From a virus, in IMG/VR virus record IMGVR_UViG_3300042887_003034, positions 1-55,341 of that record: a stretch of 55,341 nucleotides of DNA; one strand, 5' to 3'. The notes under the pieces were generated by a model. It saw only the letters and a program-made list of their open reading frames with translations. It was not told the origin of the DNA and ran no database searches. Shown one piece after another: positions 4,023-28,642 of the stretch (position 1 is the first letter of the stretch; each line of letters begins with the position of its first letter). The position numbers and the translations under genes were made by a program.

Positions 4023-4051
4023 AGTATAGCACCAGTCAAAGACCCTGTCAA
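4023..4051 (-). promoter_or_regulatory. sigma70-type early promoter (first of the repeated family)
   Basis: On the minus strand: TTGACA, 17 bp beginning GGGTCTTTG, then TATACT. This is the reference member of the family. The 15 bp TTGACAGGGTCTTTG is nearly invariant, and the sequence after the -10 is GCAAGAAC followed by a strong SD. Drives the 3707-3991 gene. Confidence 0.88.
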
Positions 4052-4061
4052 CCGCTGGGCT

Positions 4062-4436
4062 TTAGGCCGCAGCCCGGAAAAAGCCGTAGGGCAGGCCGTT
4101 GAGGTAGCACAGGTACTCCCAGTCGCCACCGGCCTCGTCGGCTTCCATGATCCAGCGCAGCGCGGTCTCGCGGTCCTTGGCACCAGCACGGATTGTCTGC
4201 TCAATCCGCTTGCAGAACTTCACCACAGCACGGGCCTCGTCCTCACGGCGGGCACGCTCACCGCGCTCGATCTCCCGCGCCAGGTACTGGAACTCCTCCT
4301 CGAAGTCCTGCTCGGTCCAGTTGCTGGTGTCGATGCCACGCGGGCGGACACCGTGGGCGTCCTTGTACATGTCCCAGTAGGTGCAGGCCATCTGCTCGAG
4401 CACGGTCATCTCTTCCCAGGTCTTGAACTGTTCCAT
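4062..4436 (-). CDS. Unknown acidic/basic alpha-helical protein
   Basis: 124 residues from the ATG of MEQFKTWEEM, chosen for SD CGGAGCAGACG. An upstream ATGATGAACGCA immediately follows the promoter and would add up to 8 residues without an SD. Charged and mostly helical; it contains ACTYWDMYKDAHGVRP and a DEAGGDWEYLCYLNGLPYGF C-terminal segment. I recognise no family. Confidence 0.75.
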   Translation of the reverse strand: MEQFKTWEEMTVLEQMACTYWDMYKDAHGVRPRGIDTSNWTEQDFEEEFQYLAREIERGERARREDEARAVVKFCKRIEQTIRAGAKDRETALRWIMEADEAGGDWEYLCYLNGLPYGFFRAAA

Positions 4437-4466
4437 CGTCTGCTCCGTTGCGTTCATCATGTCAGT

Positions 4467-4495
4467 AGTATATGATCGAACAAAGACCCTGTCAA
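4467..4495 (-). promoter_or_regulatory. Early promoter
   Basis: TTGACA-17-TATACT with the GGGTCTTTG core; the initial transcribed region is ACTGACATGATGAACGCA. Feeds the 4062-4436 gene. Confidence 0.87.
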
Positions 4496-4512
4496 CCGCT
4501 GGACTTGGGGCT

Positions 4513-4546
4513 GGAGTGCCGGGGCTGTGGCTTGTGTGCCACAGCC
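4513..4546. repeat. REP-like hairpin element (GGAGTGCC + stem), copy 1
   Basis: GGAGTGCC followed by GGCTGTGGC / GCCACAGCC around a 6-nt loop. It lies between the 3' end of the 4552-5169 gene and the next promoter. Related elements are at 10769, 14502, 22120, 23100, 24674, 28654 and 48184. Probably a terminator or transcript-end stabiliser. Confidence 0.65.
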
Positions 4547-4551
4547 TAGGA

Positions 4552-5169
4552 TCACACGTACTGCATCTGCCGGGGGCTCAGCGGACGCTGGAACCGGGGC
4601 GCCGGGTCCTGTGCCCAGTCGATGATCTGCTGCCGCAGGCTCTTGCGGAAGCCGCTGCGCAGGTTGCTGGTGATCAGCTTGCTGACCTGCGTCCAGAAGC
4701 CCAGCCCCACAGCATCACGCAGGCGCTCCACCTGTTGGCGGGTCAGCCCTGCCTTGCGGGCCGTGTCAGCATCTTGACGGCGCTGGTTGCGGCGCTGCAG
4801 GACTTGGTTGCGGCGCTGCCGGTAGGCCAGGTAAGCCTTGTACTCAGCCTGCACTTCGGGCGTGGCATCCACCGAGGATGCGTAGCAGGGGTAGCTCCAG
4901 CCGCGGGTGGTGGCGAACATGATCTCGTGGGCGGTGCGGCTCACCGGATCCCACACGGTCATGAAGAAGTCGCTGTCGTCGTACATGTTGCGCTCACGCT
5001 CGGCCACGCACAGCCCGTGGTGCGTGGTGTACAGGGTGTCGCCCTGGCGCTGGTCGTTCATGCCGCTGACGCCGGGCAAGGGGCAGTACTCGCCCGGGTG
5101 GAACTCGGTGCGCAGAGTGCGGGCACCGTTGGAGTAGTCAAAGGAAGAACCCAGGTTGATGATCGGCAT
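4552..5169 (-). CDS. Hypothetical protein, 205 aa
   Basis: Starts MPIINLGSSFDY after SD AGGAGTCGACG. The N-terminal half looks globular (GEYCPLPGV, HHGLCVAERERNMYDDSDFFMTVWDP). The C-terminal half has a strongly basic Arg/Gln stretch (RQRRNQVLQRRNQRRQD, about residues 117-133) that could be a coiled coil or nucleic-acid-binding segment. No recognised family. Monocistronic, with its own promoter and a hairpin directly after the stop. Confidence 0.75.
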   Translation of the reverse strand: MPIINLGSSFDYSNGARTLRTEFHPGEYCPLPGVSGMNDQRQGDTLYTTHHGLCVAERERNMYDDSDFFMTVWDPVSRTAHEIMFATTRGWSYPCYASSVDATPEVQAEYKAYLAYRQRRNQVLQRRNQRRQDADTARKAGLTRQQVERLRDAVGLGFWTQVSKLITSNLRSGFRKSLRQQIIDWAQDPAPRFQRPLSPRQMQYV

Positions 5170-5196
5170 CGTCGACTCCTTTGTTTCAGTGTCAGT

Positions 5197-5225
5197 AGTA
5201 TATGATCGATCAATGACCCTGTCAA
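5197..5225 (-). promoter_or_regulatory. Early promoter
   Basis: TTGACA-17-TATACT; core variant GGGTCATTG. Feeds the 4552-5169 gene. Confidence 0.87.
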
Positions 5226-5233
5226 CCGGTGGG

Positions 5234-5392
5234 TTATTGCTCCTCTACCTCATGCCACACATCATTCCACGGGTTAGAATCGTCGGCTTCATCGGCGTAG
5301 TCCCACGCAGCCTGCGAAGTTTCAAATTCAGCAACCGCGATCCGAATCACATCTCCGTAGTCCCGAACGCATCTCTTTACAACCCACATCAT
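5234..5392 (-). CDS. Small acidic hypothetical protein
   Basis: 52 residues, beginning MMWVVKRCVRDYGDV; the second of two adjacent ATGs (5389) is equally possible behind AAGGAGCAG. Ends DDSNPWNDVWHEVEEQ. It has no promoter of its own and sits 32 bp after the 5425-5586 gene, so it is the second gene of that unit. Confidence 0.68.
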   Translation of the reverse strand: MMWVVKRCVRDYGDVIRIAVAEFETSQAAWDYADEADDSNPWNDVWHEVEEQ

Positions 5393-5424
5393 CTGCTCCT
5401 TGTGGAGGTTCAGTGCCAGTGGGC

Positions 5425-5586
5425 TCAGCCCAGGACCAGCGAGTCCAGTTCCACTTCGACCTGCTGCTGCTTCTGCAGGTCGGCGATCTCCTGCAGTTCG
5501 AAGTTGACTTCGATGCGCACGCCCTCGAGGAACTCAGCCCAGAGGTCCTCGCCGTAGAACTCTTCGCAGGTGATCTCGTCGAACAT
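5425..5586 (-). CDS. Small acidic hypothetical protein
   Basis: 53 residues, MFDEITCEEFYGEDLWAEFL, then a helical acidic segment with EIADLQKQQQVEVE. SD GGAGAAAACG. An acidic mini-protein of the kind that often binds host enzymes in phage takeover, but no target can be named. Confidence 0.7.
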   Translation of the reverse strand: MFDEITCEEFYGEDLWAEFLEGVRIEVNFELQEIADLQKQQQVEVELDSLVLG

Positions 5587-5612
5587 CGTTTTCTCCTTGC
5601 TACAGTTCTTGC

Positions 5613-5641
5613 AGTATAAGTTCAGTCAGCAGTCCTGTCAA
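5613..5641 (-). promoter_or_regulatory. Early promoter
   Basis: TTGACA-17-TATACT, core variant GGACTGCTG. The stop codon of the upstream 42-43-residue gene lies inside the -35 (TTGACA supplies its TGA). Feeds 5425-5586 and 5234-5392. Confidence 0.85.
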
Positions 5642-5769
5642 CCGCGCTTGCGATCGTTGATCCACAGCAGGATGCTGGCAATGGTCACAGAGATCACAGT
5701 GACCGCTGTGATGGCCAGGGCAGTGCCCGCAATCACGTAGACCAACAGCAGCAGGTTGTCCAGCATCAT
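5638..5769 (-). CDS. Single-pass membrane mini-protein
   Basis: 43 residues from the first of two consecutive ATGs (42 from the second): MLDNLLLLVYVIAGTALAIT and on through VTVISVTIASILLW, then a basic end NDRKRG. Almost the whole protein is hydrophobic, with one long or two short helices and a probable cytoplasmic C terminus. SD GAGGAGTTG. Its TGA is part of the next -35 box. Function unknown. Confidence 0.68.
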   Translation of the reverse strand: MMLDNLLLLVYVIAGTALAITAVTVISVTIASILLWINDRKRG

Positions 5770-5789
5770 CAACTCCTCAGTGTCCTTGC

Positions 5790-5818
5790 AGTATAAGTTC
5801 AGCGAGCAGTCCTGTCAA
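5790..5818 (-). promoter_or_regulatory. Early promoter
   Basis: TTGACA-17-TATACT; core GGACTGCTCG, like the 5613 copy. Feeds the 5638-5769 membrane protein. Confidence 0.85.
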
Positions 5819-5839
5819 CCGGGGCTGAAGTGCCCCGGT
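5818..5839 (-). terminator. Hairpin between GIY-YIG-like gene and next promoter
   Basis: ACCGGGGC / GCCCCGGT with a 6-nt loop, 5 bp after the stop of the 5845-6183 gene and abutting the next -35 box. This stem-loop plus promoter pairing is the PeSL layout known from T4-type phages. Confidence 0.65.
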
Positions 5840-5844
5840 GTTGT

Positions 5845-6183
5845 TTAATCGCCACGCTTGTCAGTGTTCAGCGAGGGCTTGACAGCACGGCGGATTTCGA
5901 CTTCCCTGCGGTGCGCTTCGGCCTTGCCGCGCACAATCTCGTGGACAACGATCTCGATCTCGTTCTTGTCGTTGAGTTGGCGCAGGGCGGCGCAGAGCGT
6001 CCAGTCCTTGCTCTCAGTCTTGGCGCGGTAGAAGTGCTTGGCAGCACGGGCCCGCACACTCTTCAGCACCGTGCTCTCGGTCTTGGCAGTGACGCCAATG
6101 TAGTTCCCACCTGCGACACGGAGTTCGTAGATGATGTGATTGCGGTCGCTGCGCTTCTTGCGGGTTGCTTGGGCTTCGGTCAT
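5845..6183 (-). CDS. GIY-YIG-like nuclease domain protein
   Basis: 112 residues from MTEAQATRKK, chosen because SD GGAGCACACG precedes it. The core IIYELRVAGGNYIGVTAK (about residues 18-35) fits the GIY-YIG signature, with the second motif degenerate as YIG, followed by the conserved Arg/His region VRARAAKHFYRAK. A Glu-containing helix (EIVRGKAEAHRREVEIRR) could carry the metal ligand. It could be a small structure-specific or homing-type nuclease, or an inactive derivative. Monocistronic. Confidence 0.62.
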   Translation of the reverse strand: MTEAQATRKKRSDRNHIIYELRVAGGNYIGVTAKTESTVLKSVRARAAKHFYRAKTESKDWTLCAALRQLNDKNEIEIVVHEIVRGKAEAHRREVEIRRAVKPSLNTDKRGD

Positions 6184-6204
6184 CGTGTGCTCCATCATGT
6201 CAGT

Positions 6205-6233
6205 AGTATAGCACCCCTCAATGACCCTGTCAA
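6205..6233 (-). promoter_or_regulatory. Early promoter
   Basis: TTGACA-17-TATACT, core GGGTCATTG. Feeds the GIY-YIG-like gene. Confidence 0.87.
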
Positions 6234-6243
6234 GTGGTGTGAT

Positions 6244-6627
6244 TTACCAGTTGAACTCGCTGCTCAACCCCAGCGCCTGCTGCTCTTCTGGGCTCAACTT
6301 GGCAAACGCTTGCCGCCGCAGGTTGCGTTGACGCTTCTCTTCACGAGCCTCTTCTTCCTTGATTTCCACACGCCAATCCAACTCATGCAGGGCTTCTTGA
6401 TTCTCCGTAGAGTAGGTCAGAGTCAGCTCTACGGAGCGATCACGGCAGCCGTCACGATCGCTCAGGACGAACTTGGCATCGCGGACAGCCAGTTCCCAGT
6501 TAGTCTTTGTGGCACGCTCTAGCATAGCCATCAGCCGTTGCGGGTAGGTAGCAGCCTGCTCTGCTTGGTATGCAGCTCGCTCTGCTGCTTCACGGGCCAG
6601 TCGTTCTGCTTTGGTTTCGCGTGCCAT
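6244..6627 (-). CDS. Coiled-coil hypothetical protein
   Basis: 127 residues. The N terminus (MARETKAERLAREAAERAAY) and the middle (EIKEEEAREEKRQRNLRRQA) are highly charged and heptad-like, flanking a short globular part (NWELAVRDAKFVLSDRDG). The tail is LSPEEQQALGLSSEF. No family recognised. Confidence 0.72.
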   Translation of the reverse strand: MARETKAERLAREAAERAAYQAEQAATYPQRLMAMLERATKTNWELAVRDAKFVLSDRDGCRDRSVELTLTYSTENQEALHELDWRVEIKEEEAREEKRQRNLRRQAFAKLSPEEQQALGLSSEFNW

Positions 6628-6655
6628 TTCGTGTGCTCCTTGCTGCTATGTCTGT

Positions 6656-6684
6656 ACTATAGCACCCCTCAAAGACCCTGTCAA
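6656..6684 (-). promoter_or_regulatory. Early promoter
   Basis: TTGACA-17-TATAGT, GGGTCTTTG core, followed by ACAGACAT. This is the second initial-transcribed-region type. Feeds 6244-6627. Confidence 0.87.
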
Positions 6685-6686
6685 CC

Positions 6687-7088
6687 TTAGGGCTTTTGGT
6701 GGCACAGGTCCACGGATTCGGAGTAGTAGCCGTTGGACTCGCCCAACCAACGAACGTCCACATAGCCCTTACGGGTAGCGAACTTGTAGAAGGTAAAGGT
6801 GTAGGACTCGAACATTTCGTCCTCGATGTCTGCAGGCACTTCACCTTGAACTTCTTCGGCGATCAGCAAGGGCTCACCTACCAAGTCCTCGAGATCACCA
6901 ACGATGTCGTTGATGTCCACAGACTCACAGCAGGACTGGAAGTGGGTGAACACAAAGCGCTCGCCGTTCTGATCAACGAACACCATCTCACCCGAGCCCA
7001 CCGAACCTTCTACACGAACGAAGGTACGACCAACCATCGAGCGCAGACCTTCTTGGGTATCAACCATATCGTTCCAGTTCAGTTCCAT
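6687..7088 (-). CDS. Acidic hypothetical protein
   Basis: 133 residues from the second of two adjacent ATGs (better SD spacing from AGGAGCAG; the first is at 7091). Beta-rich opening (MVGRTFVRVEGSVGSGEMVF) with an acidic middle (DLEDLVGEPLLIAEEVQGEV), ending in GESNGYYSESVDLCHQKP. Reminiscent of small phage proteins with an SH3-like N terminus, but no family assigned. Confidence 0.72.
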   Translation of the reverse strand: MELNWNDMVDTQEGLRSMVGRTFVRVEGSVGSGEMVFVDQNGERFVFTHFQSCCESVDINDIVGDLEDLVGEPLLIAEEVQGEVPADIEDEMFESYTFTFYKFATRKGYVDVRWLGESNGYYSESVDLCHQKP

Positions 7089-7118
7089 CATCTGCTCCTG
7101 TTTGCTTACTGTTCTTGC

Positions 7119-7147
7119 AGTATAAGCTCAAACAAAGACCCTGTCAA
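7119..7147 (-). promoter_or_regulatory. Early promoter
   Basis: TTGACA-17-TATACT, GGGTCTTTG core. Feeds 6687-7088. Confidence 0.87.
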
Positions 7148-7155
7148 GTGGTGGG

Positions 7156-7365
7156 CTATCGACCGATTGTTTGCTGGCGCTTGAGCAGAGCCCGTTCAGC
7201 GTCAATCAGCGTTTCCACACGGTTGATCAGGTCAACGTAGTAGTCCGAACGATGACGGGCATGGGTCAGCCGTTGATCAAGATCAGCACACTGTTCCAGG
7301 CTATACCGAACACCCAAAAGGGTGTCAATCAGATCGTCCCGGCTGTTAAAGGTAAGATCGCTCAT
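7156..7365 (-). CDS. Helical hypothetical protein
   Basis: 69 residues starting MSDLTFNSRDDLIDTLLG; helical throughout and rich in Leu, Asp and Arg. Its ATG follows the TGA of the 7367-7546 gene by one base (TGAAATG), indicating coupled translation. The frame stays open further upstream, but that part has no SD and overlaps the real upstream gene. Confidence 0.72.
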   Translation of the reverse strand: MSDLTFNSRDDLIDTLLGVRYSLEQCADLDQRLTHARHRSDYYVDLINRVETLIDAERALLKRQQTIGR

Positions 7366-7366
7366 T

Positions 7367-7546
7367 TCAGCACTCCCCGCGATAGACGACTTCTTGGACA
7401 CCGTAGGGCATGAAATAACTGGCCCGAACCAGTTCTTCGGCATGTTGCTCGTCTTCGGCACGAACTCGCACATAGTCGACAAAGGTGCCCTGATCATCTT
7501 CGCATTCGAAGAACACATCGTAGAATCCCAGAACTGCTTGGTCCAT
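7367..7546 (-). CDS. Small acidic protein
   Basis: 59 residues, MDQAVLGFYDVFFECEDDQG and so on. The beta-strand plus helix pattern (VRVRAEDEQHAEELVRASYF) resembles small phage/plasmid proteins of ferredoxin-like fold. SD AAGGAGCAGACGAG. First gene of a two-gene unit. Confidence 0.72.
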   Translation of the reverse strand: MDQAVLGFYDVFFECEDDQGTFVDYVRVRAEDEQHAEELVRASYFMPYGVQEVVYRGEC

Positions 7547-7576
7547 CTCGTCTGCTCCTTGTTTCGCTATGTGTGT

Positions 7577-7605
7577 ATTATACGGCAGGATGGATCAGGT
7601 GTCAA
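7577..7605 (-). promoter_or_regulatory. Early promoter with divergent spacer
   Basis: TTGACA-17-TATAAT, spacer beginning CCTGATCC rather than GGGTC; full-consensus boxes. Feeds 7367-7546 and 7156-7365. Confidence 0.85.
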
Positions 7606-7631
7606 CTCCAGATGCGATTTGGGATTTATTG

Positions 7632-7862
7632 TCAAATCTTCTTTACCTTGCCGAGAACCGGATCGTTGGCAATGTAGCCCTTGTAACCGTTGTCCATATC
7701 CCGGGCGGAACCAAAAGTGTAGATCATTTTGTTGTCGTCAGGGCGAACAAAGACCCATTCGAAACTGCTGTTCTTTACGGTGTAGACCACACTTCCTTCG
7801 TAGAACCTACGGAAAGCATACTCGACCCGAACACGATCACCAGCAGAGAAAACTTGATTCAT
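7632..7862 (-). CDS. Small beta-rich protein (KOW/SH3-like?)
   Basis: 76 residues: MNQVFSAGDRVRVEYAFRRF then EGSVVYTVKNSSFEWVFVRP. The GDRVRV opening and alternating strands suggest an SH3-like barrel as in KOW-type RNA- or protein-binding domains. This is a guess from pattern only. Second gene after the 37-residue membrane protein. Confidence 0.68.
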   Translation of the reverse strand: MNQVFSAGDRVRVEYAFRRFYEGSVVYTVKNSSFEWVFVRPDDNKMIYTFGSARDMDNGYKGYIANDPVLGKVKKI

Positions 7863-8027: not shown

Positions 8028-8056
8028 AGTATAGCACCAAACAAAGACCCTGTCAA
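8028..8056 (-). promoter_or_regulatory. Early promoter
   Basis: TTGACA-17-TATACT, GGGTCTTTG core. The last codons of the 8053-8277 gene (Asp and TGA) overlap its -35. Feeds 7891-8004 and 7632-7862. Confidence 0.87.
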
Positions 8057-8303: not shown

Positions 8304-8332
8304 ACTATAGCAGGAAACAAAGACCCTGTCAA
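8304..8332 (-). promoter_or_regulatory. Early promoter
   Basis: TTGACA-17-TATAGT, GGGTCTTTG core, ACAGACATCG start. Feeds 8053-8277. Confidence 0.87.
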
Positions 8333-8787: not shown

Positions 8788-8816
8788 ACTATAGCAGGAA
8801 ACAAAGACCCTGTCAA
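8788..8816 (-). promoter_or_regulatory. Early promoter
   Basis: TTGACA-17-TATAGT, GGGTCTTTG core; almost identical to the 8304 copy through the leader. Feeds 8558-8761 and 8349-8558. Confidence 0.87.
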
Positions 8817-9273: not shown

Positions 9274-9302
9274 ACTATAGCAGGGATCAAAGACCCTGTC
9301 AA
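9274..9302 (-). promoter_or_regulatory. Early promoter
   Basis: TTGACA-17-TATAGT, GGGTCTTTG core. The TGA of the 9299-9460 gene is inside its -35. Feeds 9044-9247 and 8844-9017. Confidence 0.87.
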
Positions 9303-9486: not shown

Positions 9487-9515
9487 ATTATAGCGTAGGG
9501 CCTGAACCCCGTCAA
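9487..9515 (-). promoter_or_regulatory. Early promoter, weaker -35
   Basis: TTGACG-17-TATAAT; spacer GGGTTCAGG. Feeds 9299-9460. Confidence 0.8.
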
Positions 9516-9523: not shown

Positions 9524-10258
9524 TCAGGCCTTGTGCCAATTTCCAGCCACGTAGGTCTTGGCCAACGACAGCGACATCCCCAGCACGGTGACTGCGAAGT
9601 TGACCACCACCGAACTGCCTTCGCCGCGAGCCTTGGCCTGCGCGATACGAGCCCGCACAAGAGCAGCCTTGCTAGCACCCTCGGGCTTCTGAACCGGCTT
9701 CTGAACCGGCACTCCCGTGGTCACAGGCTTTACGGTCTGCACCGGCTGCTCTCCAAGCAGGCTGTAGGCGCTGCTGATGTTGATTGCACCCTTGCCGTCA
9801 CGGAAGCGGTAGACCACACCGCTCTGCACCTTGCGATGACGGGTGGCACTGAGGTGAACAGTGGCCCCGGTGCTGGTGGTGTAGACGTAGGTTTCGCCCT
9901 TGGCGTAGACGACCTTTTCCTTGTGGTAGGTTTCGCCACTGCCGCCCAACCACTGGCAGGTACGGCGCCAGGCCCAACCGTGACCGCGATCGCTGCCGTT
10001 GGCAAAGCAGATCACGTGCGCCAGTTCGTGCGGCACGGTGTCCTTGAAGAGGTGATCCCAGGCCTCGTTCTGCATCATGTCGGTGTTGAACCGCATGAAG
10101 TAGTTCCAACCGCGGCGTCCTGCAATGCCGGCACTGCGACCACGAAGATCGAAACGCACATCGATCTGCGGGATCTTTTGGCCGGGGTGCCCTGCTTCGT
10201 ACTTGGTGATCAGTTCTGCAATCTTGGCACGGACCTGGGCGATGCGCTCTTGAAGCAT
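9524..10258 (-). CDS. SprT-like zinc metalloprotease with a C-terminal shared module
   Basis: 244 residues from MLQERIAQVRAK (SD AAGGAGTTGAA). The SprT-type active site is HELAHVICFA (HExxH) with a third His in DRGHGWAWRR, at about residues 74-100, followed by a beta-rich region. A linker with VQKPVQKPEG leads to a C-terminal 45-residue module (VRARIAQAKARGEG through LAKTYVAGNW) that recurs in the 3707-3991 protein. SprT/Spartan-type proteases are associated with DNA-protein crosslinks; the phage substrate is unknown. The length fits SprT family members plus the extra module. Confidence 0.85.
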   Translation of the reverse strand: MLQERIAQVRAKIAELITKYEAGHPGQKIPQIDVRFDLRGRSAGIAGRRGWNYFMRFNTDMMQNEAWDHLFKDTVPHELAHVICFANGSDRGHGWAWRRTCQWLGGSGETYHKEKVVYAKGETYVYTTSTGATVHLSATRHRKVQSGVVYRFRDGKGAINISSAYSLLGEQPVQTVKPVTTGVPVQKPVQKPEGASKAALVRARIAQAKARGEGSSVVVNFAVTVLGMSLSLAKTYVAGNWHKA

Positions 10259-10283: not shown

Positions 10284-10312
10284 ACTATAGCAGGAGTTGG
10301 AGAGCCTGTCAA
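10284..10312 (-). promoter_or_regulatory. Early promoter
   Basis: TTGACA-17-TATAGT; variant core GGCTCTCC. The TGA of 10309-10686 overlaps the -35. Feeds the SprT-like gene. Confidence 0.85.
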
Positions 10313-10686
10313 CCGAACTTCTTCAGAATCGGCAGCAGCGCCTCGACCAGTTCGTAGTCCTCGCGAAGCACCGCCTCGCTGGTCAGCGCACGGAGGCTGT
10401 CCACAGCCGAAGTGCGATGCTGGTTGACCTCCACCAACAGACCCATCACTCGCAGGTCACGCACGGCACCGTCGAAACGCTCCTGTGCAGAGACCAGCAG
10501 GCCCGTGGCGTAATCCTCGCGCGCCTCACACTGGATCGCGATCTTATGCACGCCGGGCACTTCGCTGAGGTCCTTGGCATCCTTGAGCCCGAGATTGGTC
10601 AGCGTCCGGAGTGTCTTGATCACTGCGATCTTGTTGATCTGGCCGTAGTCGTTGGGAAAGTTGACGGTGATGCTCTTGGGGATCAT
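10309..10686 (-). CDS. Ribosomal protein L7/L12 C-terminal-domain homologue
   Basis: 125 residues. Residues about 17-45 (NKIAVIKTLRTLTNLGLKDA then KDLSEVPG) match the signature of the bacterial bL12 C-terminal domain (KIAVIK, GLGLKEAKDL), the part of the ribosomal stalk that recruits translational GTPases. The N-terminal dimerisation domain and hinge of bL12 are missing; instead about 80 helical residues follow. It may compete for or redirect GTPase factors on host ribosomes, or be a repurposed fold. The domain call is good; the function is inference. Confidence 0.75.
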   Translation of the reverse strand: MIPKSITVNFPNDYGQINKIAVIKTLRTLTNLGLKDAKDLSEVPGVHKIAIQCEAREDYATGLLVSAQERFDGAVRDLRVMGLLVEVNQHRTSAVDSLRALTSEAVLREDYELVEALLPILKKFG

Positions 10687-10721: not shown

Positions 10722-10750
10722 ACTATAACAGGGAACAAAGACCCTGTCAA
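10722..10750 (-). promoter_or_regulatory. Early promoter
   Basis: TTGACA-17-TATAGT, GGGTCTTTG core. Feeds the L7/L12-like gene. Confidence 0.87.
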
Positions 10751-10768: not shown

Positions 10769-10804
10769 GGAGTGCCGATGATGTGGCAGAAATGCCACAT
10801 CATC
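10769..10804. repeat. REP-like hairpin element, copy 2
   Basis: GGAGTGCC followed by a perfect 12-bp stem GATGATGTGGCA / TGCCACATCATC with a GAAA (TTTC) loop, 3 bp beyond the stop of the 10808-11110 gene. Strong intrinsic hairpin; likely terminator. Confidence 0.72.
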
Positions 10805-11136: not shown

Positions 11137-11165
11137 AGTATAGCGCCGAACAATGACCCTGTCAA
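11137..11165 (-). promoter_or_regulatory. Early promoter
   Basis: TTGACA-17-TATACT, core GGGTCATTG, ACTGACATTG start. Feeds 10808-11110. Confidence 0.87.
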
Positions 11166-11650: not shown

Positions 11651-12526
11651 TTATCGTTTCATGCAGGTCGTAGCAGCCATGGATTTCCAAGTCTTAGGAA
11701 AACTCTTGCGCAGATCAGCCAGTTTCAATACCATGCGCAGGCTGAGTTCGCGCAGTTTCTTGGCATTATCTTCGACAAACTTGATCAGTTCGACTTTGAC
11801 TGCATCTTCAAAATCATAACGATCCAGCATGCCGCAGTCGCGAACAACCTGCTTGATACGCAGCAGTTTCTCGCGATTAGTATCCATCTGCAGGTCGATA
11901 TAATGGCAACGGCTTTCCAGCGCATCCAAATGCACTCGCAGTTTCTTACTGCGAACGTGCTCGAACTTGATATTGGTGATGAAAATGGCAGCGCCCTTAA
12001 ATTCGAAACGGTCCGGAATACCTTCGCTGCGCAGCAGTCGGCTATCAGTATTCCACGAGATGAAACGACGCTCGGAACTGTCCAAGGCACCCTTGAGAAT
12101 ATTCAAACTCAGTTCTTCGCCCAGAATAGTATCGCAGTCGTCGAAAACAATCACCGAACCCTTTTCGCTGAATTCGAAGAGTTTGGCATAAAGGCCAATG
12201 CTGCTCATTGCACCCTTGACCACTTCAAACCTGGGCTTGCGTTCGGCCAGTTTGTCAAACAAACCGTCCTTGTTAAGTACTGCCTCAACGCCGTAGGATT
12301 TGCCAACACCGGGCGGGCCAGAAACAATCATTGCACGAACGTCGCCGCTGCGCACAGCACGAGTCATTTCGTCCAGGATTGCAAAACGCTCGGCCAGTCG
12401 ATCGTAGATCTGCTGATCAGTTTCTTTGGCAACTTCGGCTTCACGCTTGTTGATAGCGTCTTGGTCGAAATCGAAAGTAATAACTTCGCCTTTGCTGGGC
12501 TTCTTGACGGCTGCGGTGCGCGGCAT
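11651..12526 (-). CDS. AAA+ ATPase
   Basis: 291 residues. Walker A GPPGVGKS (about residue 70), Walker B VIVFDDCD (about 125), and a sensor-like ITN (AAIFITNIKF, about 176) followed by candidate Arg-finger residues (LESRCHY). The 50-residue N-terminal extension contains TFDFDQDAINKREAEVAKET. It has the compact single-AAA architecture seen in many large phages (MoxR- or clamp-loader-like), where partners are unknown. SD AGGATAGA. First gene of a three-gene unit. Confidence 0.85.
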   Translation of the reverse strand: MPRTAAVKKPSKGEVITFDFDQDAINKREAEVAKETDQQIYDRLAERFAILDEMTRAVRSGDVRAMIVSGPPGVGKSYGVEAVLNKDGLFDKLAERKPRFEVVKGAMSSIGLYAKLFEFSEKGSVIVFDDCDTILGEELSLNILKGALDSSERRFISWNTDSRLLRSEGIPDRFEFKGAAIFITNIKFEHVRSKKLRVHLDALESRCHYIDLQMDTNREKLLRIKQVVRDCGMLDRYDFEDAVKVELIKFVEDNAKKLRELSLRMVLKLADLRKSFPKTWKSMAATTCMKR

Positions 12527-12556: not shown

Positions 12557-12585
12557 ATTATACAGGGGAATTAATCCCCTGTCAA
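12557..12585 (-). promoter_or_regulatory. Early promoter with inverted repeat in the spacer
   Basis: TTGACA-17-TATAAT, both boxes full consensus. The spacer and -35 hold the inverted repeat ACAGGGGA / TCCCCTGT around 5 bp, a candidate operator or an overlapping terminator stem. Feeds the AAA+ operon. Confidence 0.87.
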
Positions 12586-12941: not shown

Positions 12942-12970
12942 AGTATAGCAGGATCCAAAGACCCTGTCAA
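12942..12970 (-). promoter_or_regulatory. Early promoter
   Basis: TTGACA-17-TATACT, GGGTCTTTG core. Feeds 12593-12910. Confidence 0.87.
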
Positions 12971-13711: not shown

Positions 13712-13740
13712 AGTATAGCACTAGTCAAAGACCCTGTCAA
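13712..13740 (-). promoter_or_regulatory. Early promoter
   Basis: TTGACA-17-TATACT, GGGTCTTTG core. Feeds the three genes 13681 to 12967; overlaps the 3' end of 13737-13985. Confidence 0.87.
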
Positions 13741-14229: not shown

Positions 14230-14258
14230 AGTATAGCAGGCTTCAAAGATCCTGTCAA
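14230..14258 (-). promoter_or_regulatory. Early promoter giving a leaderless mRNA
   Basis: TTGACA-17-TATACT, core GGATCTTTG. Feeds 14077-14220 and the two genes after it. Confidence 0.85.
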
Positions 14259-14455: not shown

Positions 14456-14484
14456 AGTATAGCAAAGAGCAAAGACCTTGTCAA
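14456..14484 (-). promoter_or_regulatory. Early promoter
   Basis: TTGACA-17-TATACT, core AGGTCTTTG. Feeds 14255-14425. Confidence 0.85.
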
Positions 14485-14501
14485 CTGACTGGGTTCTGGG
14501 C

Positions 14502-14524
14502 GGAGTGCCGGGCCTGTGGCGGCC
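14502..14524. repeat. REP-like element, degenerate copy 3
   Basis: GGAGTGCC followed by GGCCTGTGGCGGCC; the second half of the usual hairpin is missing. Lies 10 bp beyond the 3' end of the 14535-14720 gene. Confidence 0.5.
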
Positions 14525-14751: not shown

Positions 14752-14826
14752 TGGCCCGGCTACCAGGACTCGAACCTGGATTTAGGGTTTAGAAGACCCT
14801 TGTTCTATCCCTTGAACTATAGCCAG
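14752..14826 (-). tRNA. tRNA-Arg (anticodon TCT), CCA encoded
   Basis: Cloverleaf read on the minus strand: acceptor CTGGCTA / TAGCCGG (one U-G pair), D stem GTTC / GAAC, anticodon stem AGGGT / ACCCT with loop CTTCTAA, T stem CCAGG / CCTGG with loop TTCGAGT, discriminator G, then CCA. Reads AGA/AGG codons. AGA is common in the AT-rich phage genes here and usually rare in GC-rich hosts. Confidence 0.93.
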
Positions 14827-15201: not shown

Positions 15202-15230
15202 ATTGTACCATCAAAATTATTTAGTGTCAA
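15202..15230 (-). promoter_or_regulatory. sigma70-like promoter, different spacer
   Basis: TTGACA-17-TACAAT; the spacer contains CTAAATAA, which also resembles a late motif. Feeds the secreted protein gene; overlaps the 3' end of the SWIM gene. Confidence 0.75.
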
Positions 15231-15784: not shown

Positions 15785-15813
15785 AGTATAAGCCCAAACA
15801 AAGACCCTGTCAA
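15785..15813 (-). promoter_or_regulatory. Early promoter
   Basis: TTGACA-17-TATACT, GGGTCTTTG core. Its whole leader is nearly identical over about 55 bp to the copy at 16027. Feeds 15598-15759 and the SWIM gene. Confidence 0.87.
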
Positions 15814-16026: not shown

Positions 16027-16055
16027 AGTATAAGCCCAAACAAAGACCCTGTCAA
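16027..16055 (-). promoter_or_regulatory. Early promoter
   Basis: TTGACA-17-TATACT, GGGTCTTTG core. Feeds 15810-16001. Confidence 0.87.
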
Positions 16056-16822: not shown

Positions 16823-16851
16823 AGTATAACACTAGCCCGATTTATTGTCAA
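16823..16851 (-). promoter_or_regulatory. sigma70-type promoter, divergent spacer
   Basis: TTGACA-17-TATACT with an AT-rich spacer lacking GGGTC. Feeds the genes from 16790 down to 16067. Confidence 0.82.
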
Positions 16852-17493: not shown

Positions 17494-17522
17494 AGTATAA
17501 GCCCAAACAAAGACCCTGTCAA
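17494..17522 (-). promoter_or_regulatory. Early promoter
   Basis: TTGACA-17-TATACT, GGGTCTTTG core. Feeds the unit 17468 to 16859. Confidence 0.87.
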
Positions 17523-18000: not shown

Positions 18001-18029
18001 ACTATAGCACCAATCAAAGACCCTGTCAA
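18001..18029 (-). promoter_or_regulatory. Early promoter
   Basis: TTGACA-17-TATAGT, GGGTCTTTG core. Feeds 17717-17974 and 17523-17705. Confidence 0.87.
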
Positions 18030-19226: not shown

Positions 19227-19255
19227 ACTATAGCACTGGATTGGGCGTTTGTCAA
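19227..19255 (-). promoter_or_regulatory. sigma70-type promoter, divergent spacer
   Basis: TTGACA-17-TATAGT; spacer AACGCCC. Feeds the histone-like-tail gene. Confidence 0.83.
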
Positions 19256-20142: not shown

Positions 20143-20171
20143 ATTATATGACAGGGGCTGTGCCCTGTCAA
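20143..20171 (-). promoter_or_regulatory. Early promoter with inverted repeat
   Basis: TTGACA-17-TATAAT; spacer contains GACAGGGC / CCCCTGTC around ACAG, an imperfect inverted repeat reaching into the -35. Feeds 20111 to 19262. Confidence 0.86.
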
Positions 20172-20828: not shown

Positions 20829-20857
20829 AGTATAACAGGGAACAATGTCCCTGTCAA
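20829..20857 (-). promoter_or_regulatory. Early promoter with inverted repeat
   Basis: TTGACA-17-TATACT; CAGGGA / TCCCTG around ACATTG within the spacer. Feeds 20623-20805 and 20387-20626. Confidence 0.87.
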
Positions 20858-21180: not shown

Positions 21181-21209
21181 AGTATAGCACCAGTCAAAGA
21201 CCCTGTCAA
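21181..21209 (-). promoter_or_regulatory. Early promoter
   Basis: TTGACA-17-TATACT, GGGTCTTTG core. Feeds 20876-21151. Confidence 0.87.
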
Positions 21210-21211
21210 CC

Positions 21212-21243
21212 GATGGGGTATTGCTGCTACACAATACCCCATC
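21212..21243 (-). terminator. Strong hairpin before the next promoter
   Basis: GATGGGGTATTG / CAATACCCCATC, a perfect 12-bp stem with an 8-nt loop, lying 5 bp after the stop of the 21249-21719 gene and 2 bp before the next -35 box. Confidence 0.72.
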
Positions 21244-21746: not shown

Positions 21747-21775
21747 AGTATAGCACTACACTTGCGCATCGTCAA
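21747..21775 (-). promoter_or_regulatory. Promoter overlapped by a long stem
   Basis: TTGACG-17-TATACT; the -35 and spacer are part of the hairpin at 21756-21787. Feeds 21249-21719. Confidence 0.8.
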
Positions 21776-22091: not shown

Positions 22092-22119
22092 ATTATAGCA
22101 CTATGCACAAAAAAAGCAA
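22092..22119 (-). promoter_or_regulatory. sigma70-type promoter, 16-bp spacer
   Basis: TTGCTT-16-TATAAT; T-rich spacer. Weaker -35 than the main family. Feeds 21798-22061. Confidence 0.65.
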
Positions 22120-22152
22120 GTGTGGCGTATTAGCCACACCCCCCGGCACTCC
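22120..22152. repeat. REP-like hairpin element, copy 4 (opposite orientation)
   Basis: On the plus strand the hairpin GTGTGGC / GCCACAC comes first and is followed by CCGGCACTCC. It ends 1 bp from the stop of 22154-22420. Confidence 0.65.
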
Positions 22153-22420: not shown

Positions 22421-22447
22421 CGTCGGCTCCTTTGTTGCAATGTCAGC

Positions 22448-22476
22448 AGTATAACAGGGGCCAAAGCCCCTGTCAA
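22448..22476 (-). promoter_or_regulatory. Early promoter with inverted repeat
   Basis: TTGACA-17-TATACT; CAGGGG / CCCCTG around CTTTGG (minus strand) spans -35 to spacer. Feeds 22154-22420. Confidence 0.87.
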
Positions 22477-22485
22477 CTGCTATGT

Positions 22486-22698
22486 TCAGGCCAGCACCTC
22501 GCGGATGTTGTGCAGCGACACCATCTCCACCTGCCGGGGGCCCACCTGGACACCGATAGCGGTCCAGGTGCTGTTGCCCACCTTGACCACACGCTTCTCG
22601 GTGACCATGCCCACCTCAAAACTCAGCGGACGGCGCTCCTTGTTGAAGCGACCCAGTTGAACAACGGAACCCGGGGTAACAGCAGCGAACTTGACCAT
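22486..22698 (-). CDS. Small beta-barrel-like protein, paralogue 1
   Basis: 70 residues, MVKFAAVTPGSVVQLGRFNK, ERRPLSFEVGMVTEKRVVKV, then GNSTWTAIGVQVGPRQVEMV. All-beta, SH3-like. Nearly identical to 27538-27750 (differences are clustered in the middle), including the 40 bp upstream with SD AAAGGAGCACAAA. Function unknown. Confidence 0.8.
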   Translation of the reverse strand: MVKFAAVTPGSVVQLGRFNKERRPLSFEVGMVTEKRVVKVGNSTWTAIGVQVGPRQVEMVSLHNIREVLA

Positions 22699-22751
22699 TT
22701 TGTGCTCCTTTAGCAGTTAGGTCGTTGGGGGAAACTTGTTTAAGTGTCAGC

Positions 22752-22780
22752 AGTATAACAAAGTTCAAAGACCCTGTCAA
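22752..22780 (-). promoter_or_regulatory. Early promoter
   Basis: TTGACA-17-TATACT, GGGTCTTTG core. Feeds 22486-22698 through an unusually long leader (about 50 nt) conserved with its paralogue. Confidence 0.87.
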
Positions 22781-22788
22781 CCGCTGTG

Positions 22789-23031
22789 TTATTGTTGCTC
22801 TTGTTCGAACTCGGCGATCATCTGCTCGGCCAGTCGCCGGTGCTGAGCACTGGAGGTATGCACCAGGCCGACATAGTGACCGAAATCGTTGCAGCCGATC
22901 TCAGTGACACGAGCCCGCTTGGCGCCCAAGCGATGCAGCAGATCTTCGATCTGCTTGAACTCGTGATAATCGGAAACTTCGACGGTCGTGGGCAACTTGA
23001 TCGTCAGTTCGGTGTCGGTTTTGATCTTCAT
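22789..23031 (-). CDS. Hypothetical protein, 80 aa
   Basis: From MKIKTDTELTIKLPTTVEVS. Alpha/beta with ADHEFKQ-like start of a helix (YHEFKQIEDLLHRLGAKRAR), a central GCNDFGHYVGLVH and a C-terminal helix AEQMIAEFEQEQQ. No family. Confidence 0.72.
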   Translation of the reverse strand: MKIKTDTELTIKLPTTVEVSDYHEFKQIEDLLHRLGAKRARVTEIGCNDFGHYVGLVHTSSAQHRRLAEQMIAEFEQEQQ

Positions 23032-23058: not shown

Positions 23059-23087
23059 AGTATAAGTTCTTTGAAAGACCCTGTCAA
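23059..23087 (-). promoter_or_regulatory. Early promoter
   Basis: TTGACA-17-TATACT, GGGTCTTTC core. Feeds 22789-23031. Confidence 0.87.
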
Positions 23088-23099: not shown

Positions 23100-23131
23100 T
23101 GTGGCATCACTGCCACACCCCCCGGCACTCC
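23100..23131. repeat. REP-like hairpin element, copy 5
   Basis: TGTGGCA / TGCCACA with a TCAC loop, then CCGGCACTCC; same orientation as copy 4 and shared flanking CCTCAGTAGTCG, which encodes the ends of both adjacent genes (22154 and 23133). Confidence 0.65.
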
Positions 23132-23468: not shown

Positions 23469-23497
23469 AGTATAAGCTCAAACAAAGACCCTGTCAA
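23469..23497 (-). promoter_or_regulatory. Early promoter
   Basis: TTGACA-17-TATACT, GGGTCTTTG core. Feeds 23133-23441. Confidence 0.87.
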
Positions 23498-23735: not shown

Positions 23736-23764
23736 AGTATAACAGGGACCGAAGTCCCTGTCAA
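23736..23764 (-). promoter_or_regulatory. Early promoter with inverted repeat
   Basis: TTGACA-17-TATACT; CAGGGA / TCCCTG within the spacer. Feeds 23509-23712. Confidence 0.87.
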
Positions 23765-24108: not shown

Positions 24109-24137
24109 AGTATATCGTCAGAGCAAACTCAAGTCAA
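24109..24137 (-). promoter_or_regulatory. sigma70-type promoter, divergent spacer
   Basis: TTGACT-17-TATACT, spacer TGAGTTTGC. Overlaps the 3' end of 24118-24336. Feeds 23776-24081. Confidence 0.82.
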
Positions 24138-24628: not shown

Positions 24629-24657
24629 AGTATAGCAGAACTCAAAGACCCTGTCAA
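24629..24657 (-). promoter_or_regulatory. Early promoter
   Basis: TTGACA-17-TATACT, GGGTCTTTG core. Feeds 24336-24605 and 24118-24336. Confidence 0.87.
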
Positions 24658-24673
24658 GTCTCGGGCTATGGGC

Positions 24674-24706
24674 GGAGTGCCGGAGGTGTGACATTGCTGC
24701 CACACC
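24674..24706. repeat. REP-like hairpin element, copy 6
   Basis: GGAGTGCC, GGA, then GGTGTGACA / TGCCACACC with one mismatch and a TTGC loop; 6 bp from the stop of 24713-25285. Confidence 0.62.
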
Positions 24707-25720: not shown

Positions 25721-25749
25721 AGTATAGCGTCAAGCAGCGGCGCTGTCAA
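25721..25749 (-). promoter_or_regulatory. Early promoter
   Basis: TTGACA-17-TATACT; core GCGCCGCTG. Feeds 25440 to 24713. Confidence 0.85.
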
Positions 25750-25988: not shown

Positions 25989-26012
25989 CACTGGCTCCTT
26001 TGCAATGCCTGT

Positions 26013-26041
26013 ACTATAACAGGGAACAATGACCCTGTCAA
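26013..26041 (-). promoter_or_regulatory. Early promoter
   Basis: TTGACA-17-TATAGT, GGGTCATTG core. Feeds 25758-25988. Confidence 0.87.
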
Positions 26042-26484: not shown

Positions 26485-26503
26485 TTTCAACTCCTATATT
26501 GAA

Positions 26504-26872: not shown

Positions 26873-26901
26873 TTCACGCTCCGTTGTGTGTCAGTGTGTC
26901 T

Positions 26902-26930
26902 ACTATAACAGGAAACAAAGACCCTGTCAA
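26902..26930 (-). promoter_or_regulatory. Early promoter
   Basis: TTGACA-17-TATAGT, GGGTCTTTG core. Feeds 26504-26872 and 26038-26484. Confidence 0.87.
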
Positions 26931-26944
26931 GTCTCGGGTTAAAG

Positions 26945-27002
26945 ATGAGCAGCCGTCACGGCTTTCTGCTGCTCTCCCCCCGCGCCCGGGCCTTCCCGGA
27001 TT
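26945..27002 (-). terminator. Hairpins between tRNA-Tyr and the next promoter
   Basis: GAGCAGC / GCTGCTC with an inner GCCGTCACGGC, and a second stem CCGGG / CCCGG. On the minus strand the last stem is followed by CATCTTTAACCC, the same tail as at 18045. Would end the tRNA transcript. Confidence 0.6.
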
Positions 27003-27034
27003 GTCCGAACCATCCGATGTGTGGGGGATAAATT

Positions 27035-27118
27035 TGGTGGAGTGTGATGGATTCGAACCACCGTGCTGTTAGGACCTGATTTACAGTCAGGCGCAATCGA
27101 CCACTCTGCCAACACTCC
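27035..27118 (-). tRNA. tRNA-Tyr (anticodon GTA), CCA encoded
   Basis: Acceptor GGAGTGT / ACACTCC, anticodon arm CTGACTGTAAATCAG with GTA, long variable arm, T arm GGTGGTTCGAATCCATC, discriminator A, CCA. Class II shape and anticodon agree with bacterial tRNA-Tyr. Confidence 0.95.
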
Positions 27119-27126
27119 AAATCTTT

Positions 27127-27223
27127 ACCATAGTTCAGCACACTGCCCGCGCCCGCAAGCCCGGCATATCTACCAATACGTCTGACTGTGGTAGCAGTCA
27201 GTGCTAATGCGCTGAACTATGGT
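27127..27223 (-). ncRNA. Possible branched structured RNA between two tRNAs
   Basis: A perfect 13-bp inverted repeat (ACCATAGTTCAGC / GCTGAACTATGGT) encloses 71 bp. Inside is a hairpin CTGACTG / CAGTCAG (6-nt loop) and a GC-rich stem around TGCCGGGCTTGCGGGC. The 5' arm includes the last bases of tRNA-Lys (its CCA). It could be a processing element for the tRNA precursor, a decayed tRNA or a small RNA. Confidence 0.4.
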
Positions 27224-27294
27224 AGGAGCACAGGGATTCGAACCCTGGACCAACGGATTAAAAGTCCGCTGCGCTACCGCTGCGCCATACTCCC
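27220..27294 (-). tRNA. tRNA-Lys (anticodon TTT), CCA encoded
   Basis: Acceptor GGGAGTA / TGCTCCT (G-U at the end), D arm GCGCAGCGGTAGCGC, anticodon arm CGGACTTTTAATCCG with TTT, T arm CAGGGTTCGAATCCCTG, discriminator A, CCA. AAA is a dominant codon in the AT-rich phage genes. Confidence 0.95.
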
Positions 27295-27301
27295 AAGTTC
27301 T

Positions 27302-27469
27302 TTAAATCTCCAAACTCTCCAGTTCAGTGGCCCGTTGCAGATCTGCCACAACCTGGCACTCTGCGTTCACAAGCCAAAAGCCCCGACCTTCTTCGATGTC
27401 ACGGAGCCGATTGTACTCGTACTCGAACTCCATGATATCGTCTTGTGTCATGTCTTCTGGATACCACAT
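27302..27469 (-). CDS. Acidic mini-protein upstream of the tRNAs
   Basis: 55 residues, MWYPEDMTQDDIMEFEYEYN, RLRDIEEGRGFWLVNAECQV, then a helix. SD AAGGAGCAGAGC. Its stop is 7 bp before tRNA-Lys, so gene and tRNAs are probably one transcript from 27500. Confidence 0.7.
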   Translation of the reverse strand: MWYPEDMTQDDIMEFEYEYNRLRDIEEGRGFWLVNAECQVVADLQRATELESLEI

Positions 27470-27499
27470 GCTCTGCTCCTTGCTGCTCACTGTGAACAC

Positions 27500-27528
27500 A
27501 GTATAACAGGGGACAAAGCCCCTGTCAA
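27500..27528 (-). promoter_or_regulatory. Early promoter with inverted repeat
   Basis: TTGACA-17-TATACT; CAGGGG / CCCCTG in the spacer, matching the 22448 copy. Feeds 27302-27469, tRNA-Lys and tRNA-Tyr. Confidence 0.87.
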
Positions 27529-27537
27529 CTGCTATGT

Positions 27538-27750
27538 TCAGGCCAGCAACTCGCGGATGTTGTGCAGCGACACCATCTCCACTTGCCGGGGACCCACCTG
27601 CACGCCAATAGCGGTCCAGGTGCTGTTGCCGATCTTGGTGATCTCCTTGCTGACCACCATGCCCACCGAGTGGCTCAGGGGACTGCGATCCTTGTTGAAG
27701 CGACCCAGTTGGACCACGGAACCCGGGGTAACAGCAGCGAACTTGACCAT
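27538..27750 (-). CDS. Small beta-barrel-like protein, paralogue 2
   Basis: 70 residues, MVKFAAVTPGSVVQLGRFNK; DRSPLSHSVGMVVSKEITKI, then GNSTWTAIGVQVGPRQVEMV. The N- and C-terminal thirds are the same as 22486-22698; the middle has diverged. The downstream bases and the promoter after it (27500) also resemble the 22448 region, so a block of about 300 bp was duplicated. Confidence 0.8.
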   Translation of the reverse strand: MVKFAAVTPGSVVQLGRFNKDRSPLSHSVGMVVSKEITKIGNSTWTAIGVQVGPRQVEMVSLHNIRELLA

Positions 27751-27805
27751 TTTGTGCTCCTTTAGCAGTTAGGTCGTTGAGGGAACGTTGTGTTTCAATG
27801 TGTCT

Positions 27806-27834
27806 ACTATAACAGAACTCAGAGACCCTGTCAA
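27806..27834 (-). promoter_or_regulatory. Early promoter
   Basis: TTGACA-17-TATAGT, GGGTCTCTG core. Feeds 27538-27750. Confidence 0.87.
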
Positions 27835-27845
27835 GTGCTGGGTCT

Positions 27846-28130
27846 TTACATGCTCCAGTAAGTCTCACTGCTGGGACTGCAGAAGTAGGGCACATCGTAG
27901 CGCTCCCAGAACTGCACACCAGAGATGTGGTTGACTCGCAGAACCAAAGTTTCAAAGAACTCCAAGCGAAACTGGTCCTTGGGATACTGGCCCGAACTGC
28001 GCAGGTACATGACCAAGTCCATCATAGCAGTACCAGAGTAACCTGGATAATCCTGCTTGCTGACTAACTTTTCACCAGTGCGGCAGCGCCGATCCAGTTT
28101 GTAGATTTCCAGTGTATAGCCTTGTTGCAC
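27846..28130 (-). CDS. Hypothetical protein, 94 aa
   Basis: GTG start (SD AGGAGCAGAAG), MQQGYTLEIYKLDRRCRTGE; then SGTAMMDLVMYLRSSGQYPK, FRLEFFETLVLRVNHISG. Alpha/beta; no family. Monocistronic. Confidence 0.72.
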   Translation of the reverse strand: MQQGYTLEIYKLDRRCRTGEKLVSKQDYPGYSGTAMMDLVMYLRSSGQYPKDQFRLEFFETLVLRVNHISGVQFWERYDVPYFCSPSSETYWSM

Positions 28131-28160
28131 CTTCTGCTCCTAGCGTGTTACTGTTCTTGC

Positions 28161-28189
28161 AGTATAACAGAGTTCAAAGACCCTGTCAA
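28161..28189 (-). promoter_or_regulatory. Early promoter
   Basis: TTGACA-17-TATACT, GGGTCTTTG core. Feeds 27846-28130. Confidence 0.87.
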
Positions 28190-28192
28190 CTA

Positions 28193-28573
28193 CTAGAGAT
28201 TGTAGGGAAAGGTCAACTCCCAAACAGCATAGTGGAACAAGGGCTCGGGACCCATAGGATCAGCACCACCCAAATAAGTGTACTTGGCAATGTTGTCATT
28301 GTGTCTCAATATGCCTTCTACATCGCTGATCAAAAAGTCATAGGACTTTTTGTCCCTTTGCAGTGCAAGATTGTCAATGTGAACTTCCAAATGTGCTTTG
28401 AATTCGTTGACCCATTTTGTAGTAATTCTATAGTGTTTGGCTTTGAAAGCCCTGGGAAACTCTCGAGTAATTGCACTAATACTGTGCTTGAGAGCCCGTT
28501 CTTTTCTAGGAGAAACCTTTGTAGGTTCTGTGATTTCGTTTAGTCGCATTAGATTCACCTCGTCTGTTGCCAT
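28193..28573 (-). CDS. Hypothetical protein, 126 aa
   Basis: MATDEVNLMRLNEITEPTKV; basic VSPRKERALKHSISAITREF, then FKAKHYRITTKWVNEFKAHL. No recognised domain. The ATG follows AATAAATA directly, so besides the sigma70 promoter at 28614 it may have late, leaderless expression. It is the first gene of the minus-strand small-gene region. Confidence 0.7.
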   Translation of the reverse strand: MATDEVNLMRLNEITEPTKVSPRKERALKHSISAITREFPRAFKAKHYRITTKWVNEFKAHLEVHIDNLALQRDKKSYDFLISDVEGILRHNDNIAKYTYLGGADPMGPEPLFHYAVWELTFPYNL

Positions 28574-28613
28574 TATTTATTGCAGTCTACGAACTTAATT
28601 GCAGTGTGAGCCA

Positions 28614-28642
28614 AGTATAGCACTAGTCGCTGACGCTGTCAA
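28614..28642 (-). promoter_or_regulatory. Early promoter (most upstream copy)
   Basis: TTGACA-17-TATACT; core GCGTCAGCG. Feeds 28193-28573. Confidence 0.85.

Follow-up and report, generated by a model that had tools for sequence, protein, structure and literature searches.

Why should a single block of small phage genes carry dozens of nearly identical promoters, and what might such repeats do besides starting transcription? The question is raised by a virus fragment (IMG/VR record IMGVR_UViG_3300042887_003034), a 55 kb contig whose 55,341 nucleotides (nt) were analysed in full and are called the window below. About 75 small co-directional genes, putatively early ones, occupy positions 3707-28681 of its minus strand. 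An earlier note on this DNA had likened the promoters to promoter-early stem-loops (PeSLs), cassettes reportedly described by Arbiol et al. in 2010 and Comeau et al. in 2014 for the T4-type phages RB49/phi1 and others. We consider it very probable that this is an early-gene block in which each gene or pair of genes has its own promoter, and in which the promoters double as crossover joints.

A dense array of predicted promoters

The exact pattern TTGACA-(15..19)-TATANT occurs 43 times in the window, every time with a spacer of 17 nt, and all 43 sites lie on the minus strand between positions 4,023 and 28,642 (0.21 expected in shuffles). No exact TTGACA-N17-TATANT site was found elsewhere in the 55 kb, and none on the plus strand. 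Looser scans with one or two mismatches added near-matches at 9515, 15230, 20378, 21775 and 24137, among them TTGACG/TATAAT (9487-9515), TTGACA/TACAAT (15202-15230), TTGACG/TATACT (21747-21775) and TTGACT/TATACT (24109-24137). The total is about 50, as the earlier note had estimated, and is strongly non-random. A promoter had also been claimed in front of almost every gene unit; with about 1.7 genes per strict promoter, one promoter per gene or pair is what holds.

The -10 box is TATACT, TATAGT or TATAAT, extended by TGn in 28 of the 43 promoters, the predicted +1 position is an A in 41, and each promoter is followed by a short leader ending in GGAG ahead of the start codon. The sequence supports the prediction of strong sigma70-type promoters. 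The part kept alike within one genome is the lower promoter half, from -35 to +8. The spacer usually begins with GGGTCTTTG (21 exact copies), and the half with TTGACAGGGTCTTTG, described previously as invariant, proved to be a majority motif that is exact in 21 of 43 promoters. Three alternative start regions were recovered as claimed, with 17 promoters resembling GCAAGAAC, 11 ACAGACAT and nine ACTGACAT, besides six others; TATAGT pairs with the ACAGACAT start region, and TATACT with the GCAAGAAC and ACTGACAT types.

Members of the array include the promoters at 5197-5225, 6205-6233, 6656-6684, 7119-7147, 17494-17522, 18001-18029, 25721-25749 and 26902-26930. Divergent spacers were found at 7577-7605 and 19227-19255, and a spacer of the TTGACAATAAAT type, frequent too in the relative G007, at 16823-16851. 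Some copies are nearly identical over more than the promoter itself: the one at 8788-8816 shares 98% identity across 54 bp with that at 8304-8332, and the one at 15785-15813 shares 97% across 67 bp with that at 16027-16055.

The dense promoter array is a property of the clade and is not peculiar to the window phage. In 160 loci of the clade collected around two early genes, the boxes are 17 nt apart in 1,355 cases, 16 nt in 18 and 18 nt in 45, and this near-exclusive spacing indicates a fixed cassette rather than a loose consensus. Without duplicates there are about 1,260 clade promoters, with a median leader of 23 nt, and a Shine-Dalgarno sequence and start codon were found for 1,060 of them. 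Spacer likeness is 0.548 within the window versus 0.314 to other genomes, and the relatives have lineage-specific spacer motifs (GGTAAAACC, GGCCAAATGGCC, GCCAAAAGGC). The 29-mer TTGACAGGGTCTTTGTTTGGTGCTATACT is identical across distant contigs, and that of the promoter at 8028-8056 recurs unchanged in two other contigs.

Phage lineage and relatives

The DnaB-like helicase (phrog_19 in PHROGs) and DNA ligase (phrog_114) of the window are of the T4-superfamily type, yet their nearest relatives are jumbo phages; structural genes lie outside the window. The nearest cultured DnaB-like helicases are those of the Pseudomonas phages PA5oct/Paride (54% identity), followed by other Pseudomonadota jumbo phages. 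A nucleotide search against cultured phages revealed nothing near the window. Host genomes searched with the AAA ATPase of the block (11651-12526, minus strand) gave five distant matches in diverse metagenome-assembled genomes, with no pointer to the host. This ATPase gene is present in most of the relatives' promoter arrays, usually toward the DnaB-side end, and serves as a marker of the block.

The relatives, all of them metagenome assemblies, belong to a freshwater clade in IMG/VR, with some contigs measuring 200-383 kb. In many relatives the promoter array lies downstream of the DnaB gene on the opposite strand, and the long contigs have one dense promoter block each. The motif search proposed in the earlier note, extended to the rest of the window and to relatives, thus finds the array confined to one block and spread across the clade. 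The RNA-polymerase beta subunit (PF00562) was not found in ten long relatives, while all control genomes were positive, which fits the use of the host enzyme without proving it.

Gene exchange at promoters

Contig G010, which is 99.4% identical to window positions 1-7,817, carries one additional gene, whose end coincides with the border of the promoter at 5790-5818; this site of gene insertion or deletion between the siblings adjoins the hairpin CCGGGGCACTTCAGCCCCGG. At the promoter at 4023-4051 the changes between the two contigs form a cluster confined to the spacer, which has been replaced, and at 5613-5641 two adjacent changes have made the G010 copy identical to the neighbouring promoter at 5790-5818, a conversion. 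Within the window itself, a promoter-gene-promoter unit is duplicated (22,447-22,789 and 27,499-27,843, 85% identity), and the similarity ends at the promoter edges. The first copy has its lower edge at the promoter at 22448-22476 and its upper edge at that at 22752-22780, and the lower edge of the second copy is formed by the promoter at 27500-27528.

Cassettes are also shared with a more distant phage. Contig G011, with 66% identity to the window in DnaB, has the cassette 8289-8030 at 92.7% DNA identity among other neighbours, with ends bounded by promoters (8028-8056 at the downstream edge and 8304-8332 at the upstream one). A second cassette common to both (28549-28188, 84.8% identity), edged by the promoter at 28161-28189, also ends at promoters, and the order of the cassettes differs.

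Comparison of related contigs gave 43 unique gene-size insertions or deletions (indels) within the arrays. Both ends fell in promoters in 15 of them (34.9%, versus 1.4% at random positions), and at least one end did so in 27 (62.8% versus 20.9%). Junction homology of 10 bp or more was seen in 15 indels; it coincided with a promoter on one or both sides in 14 of them, and on both in ten. In ten three-way alignments the shorter sibling has a single hybrid promoter, of the left type upstream and of the right type downstream. Gene order and content vary among relatives, and some insertions, deletions and replacements between close relatives are bounded by cassettes. The suggestions that the repeats offer homology for gene shuffling and that gene content between them differs among siblings are therefore borne out by indels, hybrid promoters and duplication, and the identical gene order that would have contradicted them was not observed. 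Judged from these alignments, promoter crossover is demonstrated in individual cases.

The -35 box has a second role as a stop signal. The upstream gene takes its stop codon from the TGA of TTGACA at ten of the 43 window promoters (5613-5641, 8028-8056, 9274-9302, 10284-10312, 11137-11165, 12942-12970, 13712-13740, 14230-14258, 15785-15813 and 26013-26041), and none of the other called upstream genes has its end within a window promoter. Across the clade this is where the upstream stop lies most often (176 of 930, a count that allows for genes ending further into the promoter), and the ends of another 186 genes lie deeper in the promoter or just past it. Since this TGA closes the upstream gene, crossing over on the downstream side of the -35 box would harm neither gene, and joints placed at gene ends cause no loss.

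The following scheme may be proposed. Each gene or pair would be served by a separate host-type sigma70 promoter close to consensus, with a leader of about 23 nt and a ribosome-binding site, so that the host RNA polymerase could start every unit independently, presumably early in infection. As the promoters form direct repeats of nearly the same sequence exactly at gene borders, units could be gained and lost by homologous recombination, probably by the phage's own system: recombination between two promoters would delete, insert or duplicate a whole leader-gene-promoter unit and, as the sibling comparison indicates, leave a single working hybrid promoter. Any small gene that brings a promoter border with it would be expressed at once wherever it lands, which may benefit the phage. 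The block might then store small early genes in plug-and-play fashion, and the genes exchanged are probably involved in host takeover or counter-defence. The natural siblings suggest, at the resolution of single promoters, how a large phage lineage may gain, lose and duplicate early genes without breaking their expression. The promoter sequence may also serve as a search handle, as any unit that two of these promoters enclose in a freshwater metagenome is a candidate early gene.

A bolder version of this scheme is possible, although we lean against it. One 29-bp joint would do four jobs, as upstream stop, promoter, spacer hairpin or operator half-site, and crossover site, and the block would be an integron-like capture platform run by ordinary homologous recombination, with gene conversion within genomes and exchange between phages differing by a third of their core proteins.

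Alternative explanations

Several points weigh against the proposed scheme. Transcription from the window promoters, its start sites and its timing are predicted from sequence. When only gene junctions were used as the control, promoter junctions were preferred only weakly, with 40 of 76 indel ends against a base of 43.8% (P = 0.076, with rough gene calls), and 16 of the 43 indels touch no promoter. Short repeats may be misjoined in metagenome assemblies, although repeats of 11-62 bp, as found here, are short to have this effect. Likeness is slightly higher between orthologous promoters (0.365) than between non-orthologous ones (0.324), indicating that some were inherited vertically. Given the promoter-free indels and the weak junction control, promoter crossover is one route among several; it is likely a major route of gene turnover, and not the sole one.

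A different origin of the likeness would be an operator in the conserved, sometimes palindromic spacer, where a phage repressor or activator bound between -35 and -10 would switch the whole array; the spacers would be alike within one genome because the regulator binds them. We find this doubtful. Spacer dyads with arms of at least 6 nt (ACAGGG..CCCTGT) do occur in eight of the 43 window spacers, whereas 0.8 were expected and the maximum in 200 column shuffles was four. They are found at 10722-10750, 12557-12585 (ACAGGGGATTAATTCCCCTGT), 20143-20171 (TGACAGGG..CCCTGTCA), 20829-20857, 23736-23764 (8 bp, AGGGACTTCGGTCCCT) and 26013-26041, as well as at the lower edges of both duplicated cassettes. 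The relatives G042, G049 and G050 also exceed shuffles, the genome-specific motifs GGTAAAACC and GGCCAAATGGCC in relatives would suit such a regulator, and RB49 and Salmonella phage Munch have the same design, with several copies of TTGACAGGGGATC..GATCCCCTATACT in the same layout with a palindromic spacer in RB49. However, the dyad is missing from most window promoters, no excess was seen in several relatives, no regulator gene was identified, and the dyad could equally be an RNA hairpin.

The promoters might also resemble one another through selection for a strong early signal or a shared regulator, the genes being turned over by other means and the promoters merely filling the gaps between them. 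The 17-nt spacing and the TTGACA/TATAAT boxes are as expected from selection for strength, and the weak junction-level control and the promoter-free indels would fit as well. Nevertheless, spacer and start-region sequences that are dispensable for sigma70 are common within genomes and different between them, while hybrid promoters switching inside the promoter, a spacer replaced between siblings and a promoter-edged duplication are products of recombination. We therefore regard selection without promoter crossover as unlikely.

Equally at issue is whether the cassettes are full PeSLs, in which a terminator hairpin overlapping each promoter would end the upstream transcript and insulate the units. 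A stem-loop before each promoter had been suggested, and it was found at about ten of the 43, several being of one repeated type, with most copies lacking it. Upstream examples are GGCTGTGGC..GCCACAGCC with CGGCACTCC (just before promoter 4467-4495), a 12-bp stem-loop at the promoter at 10722-10750, another at 21212-21243 (directly before promoter 21181-21209), TGTGGCAGTGATGCCACA (promoter 23059-23087) and TGTGGCAGAGATGCCACA at the most upstream, first promoter of the block (28614-28642). The CGGCACTCC element also precedes the promoters at 14456-14484 and 24629-24657. The repeated type is an intergenic element with the hairpin TGTGGC..GCCACA and CGGCACTCC on one side, in either orientation, at 4500-4545, 10776-10804, 14490-14520, 22118-22152, 23100-23131, 24663-24700 and 28650-28684; its sequence GGAGTGCCGG has 11 matches with at most one mismatch, against 1.45 expected. 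Over the 47 nt upstream of the window promoters, RNA folding did not differ overall from the control, and a subset has the shared stem-loops.

An intrinsic terminator before each promoter was rejected, as terminator-like sites in the window numbered 14 versus 13.4 and 19 versus 13.2 in shuffled sequences. The clearest composite of terminator and promoter is an intrinsic-terminator-like hairpin with a T run before a weak promoter-like site (22118-22141). A hairpin holding the -35 box in its loop was likewise rejected as a general rule, being found in a minority of relatives and not significant in the window. Upstream AAAGACCC pairs with GGGTCTTT of the spacer in this way at 23469-23497, and upstream AAGACCC pairs with the spacer GGGTCT at 27806-27834, but matched halves in the window fold no better than swapped ones (seven of 60 swaps were as good). 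In the relatives, hairpins whose 5' arm lies upstream and whose 3' arm lies within the spacer are three times as frequent as with swapped partners: 44 versus 14.6 have stems of at least 8 bp, and 13 versus 1.3 have stems of at least 10 bp. In six of 18 genomes the whole-segment folds were better than those of all 60 swaps. In contig G034, such a hairpin (GCAAAGACCC-TTCGGTTGACA-GGGTCTTTGC) has GGGTCTTTG as its 3' arm. Stems of at least 8 bp nevertheless occur in only about 3% of clade promoters. Full PeSLs throughout the array are therefore improbable, and since most copies have no stem-loop or terminator, the promoter half is the only part of a PeSL that is general in this array. A plausible history would be that crossovers near the -35 box moved the lower half and left the upper arm behind.

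Recognition of the sites by a phage-encoded sigma factor or polymerase instead of the host enzyme is highly improbable. The 17-only spacing is stricter than usual for bacterial promoters, but the boxes are the bacterial housekeeping consensus and no beta subunit was found in the ten long relatives.

Other features of the window

Just beyond each end of the block lies a short tandem array, and the two might mark or protect its borders: one at 3533-3635 (12-bp unit TTTTTGAGAGAA, about eight copies) and one at 29114-29322 (11-bp units TTCCCCCACTG/TTCTTCCAAAG, about 13-15 copies). Three tRNA genes in the block have the same direction as its genes (Arg-TCT 14752-14826, Tyr-GTA 27035-27118 and Lys-TTT 27220-27294). 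Among the early genes, a protein with a SprT-like zinc metallopeptidase domain (PF10263) is encoded at 9524-10258, and one resembling the C-terminal domain of ribosomal protein L7/L12 (PF00542) at 10309-10686, both on the minus strand; the protein of the extra gene in the sibling G010 (locus L014:1976-2373) resembles the same domain by eye.

Beside the early block, with 50-60% G+C, the 10 kb at 34000-44000 have about 30% G+C and look recently imported. Radical-SAM proteins are encoded in this stretch at 37770-39152 and, by a weaker match, at 34944-37223. A collagen-like tail-fibre protein with GPSGPSG-type repeats is encoded at 48930-50828 on the plus strand.

Comparison with known systems

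Applied to cultured phages as a yardstick with 16-18 nt spacing, the same promoter pattern gave 31 matches in RB49, 39 in Munch, 14 in Paride, nine in Atu_ph07 and two in KVP40. TTGACA-N16..18-TATANT gave no match in T4 or in SPO1. T4 has a different -35 consensus. The densest 25 kb hold about nine sites in RB49 and about 11 in Munch, against 43 in the window; the density is thus unusual, as had been noted, among these cultured phages and typical within the clade. Paride, a member of the Arenbergviridae like PA5oct, shares the nearest cultured DnaB, but its matches are scattered over 287 kb and form no array.

The host-takeover module of SPO1, located in the terminal redundancy, consists of small early genes each with a strong host-type promoter and ribosome-binding site. 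It is similar as a cluster of small early genes with host-type promoters and differs in having no match to the pattern. Campylobacter group II phages have short repeats at module borders that were proposed as recombination targets, but these separate modules of 28-55 kb and are not promoters of single genes (PMC4546147). In the archaeal myovirus HGTV-1, a promoter-like or inverted-repeat motif precedes most open reading frames of one genome half and was proposed to have a role in shuffling; in contrast to the present case, the motif contains an archaeal TATA-like box, and the review cites no sibling breakpoint comparison (PMC3950731). PeSL-like cassettes outside enteric phages have already been discussed for this virus (PMC3950731) and for cyanophage S-PM2 (PMC4503421), so that their occurrence outside enteric phages, although it holds for the window phage, is not new.

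The closest comparison remains that with the PeSLs of T4-type phages. Both have copies similar in sequence at gene borders, with a strong early promoter of the sigma70 type (predicted, in the window), a hypervariable block of small genes and sibling indels that end at cassettes. The window clade differs in being related to jumbo phages, outside the known T4-type isolates, and in having about four times the density of RB49. The stem-loop, absent from most window copies and partly present in relatives, belongs to a minority here, the repeated part being the half from -35 to the leader; this makes the array a PeSL-like variant rather than an ordinary PeSL array, and the earlier match to PeSLs holds for the promoter half and the recombination joints. 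The TGA of the -35 box as a stop codon and promoter-level hybrids in ten pairs are further differences. By analogy, the array is functionally a PeSL-type shuffling system, mostly without the terminator half.

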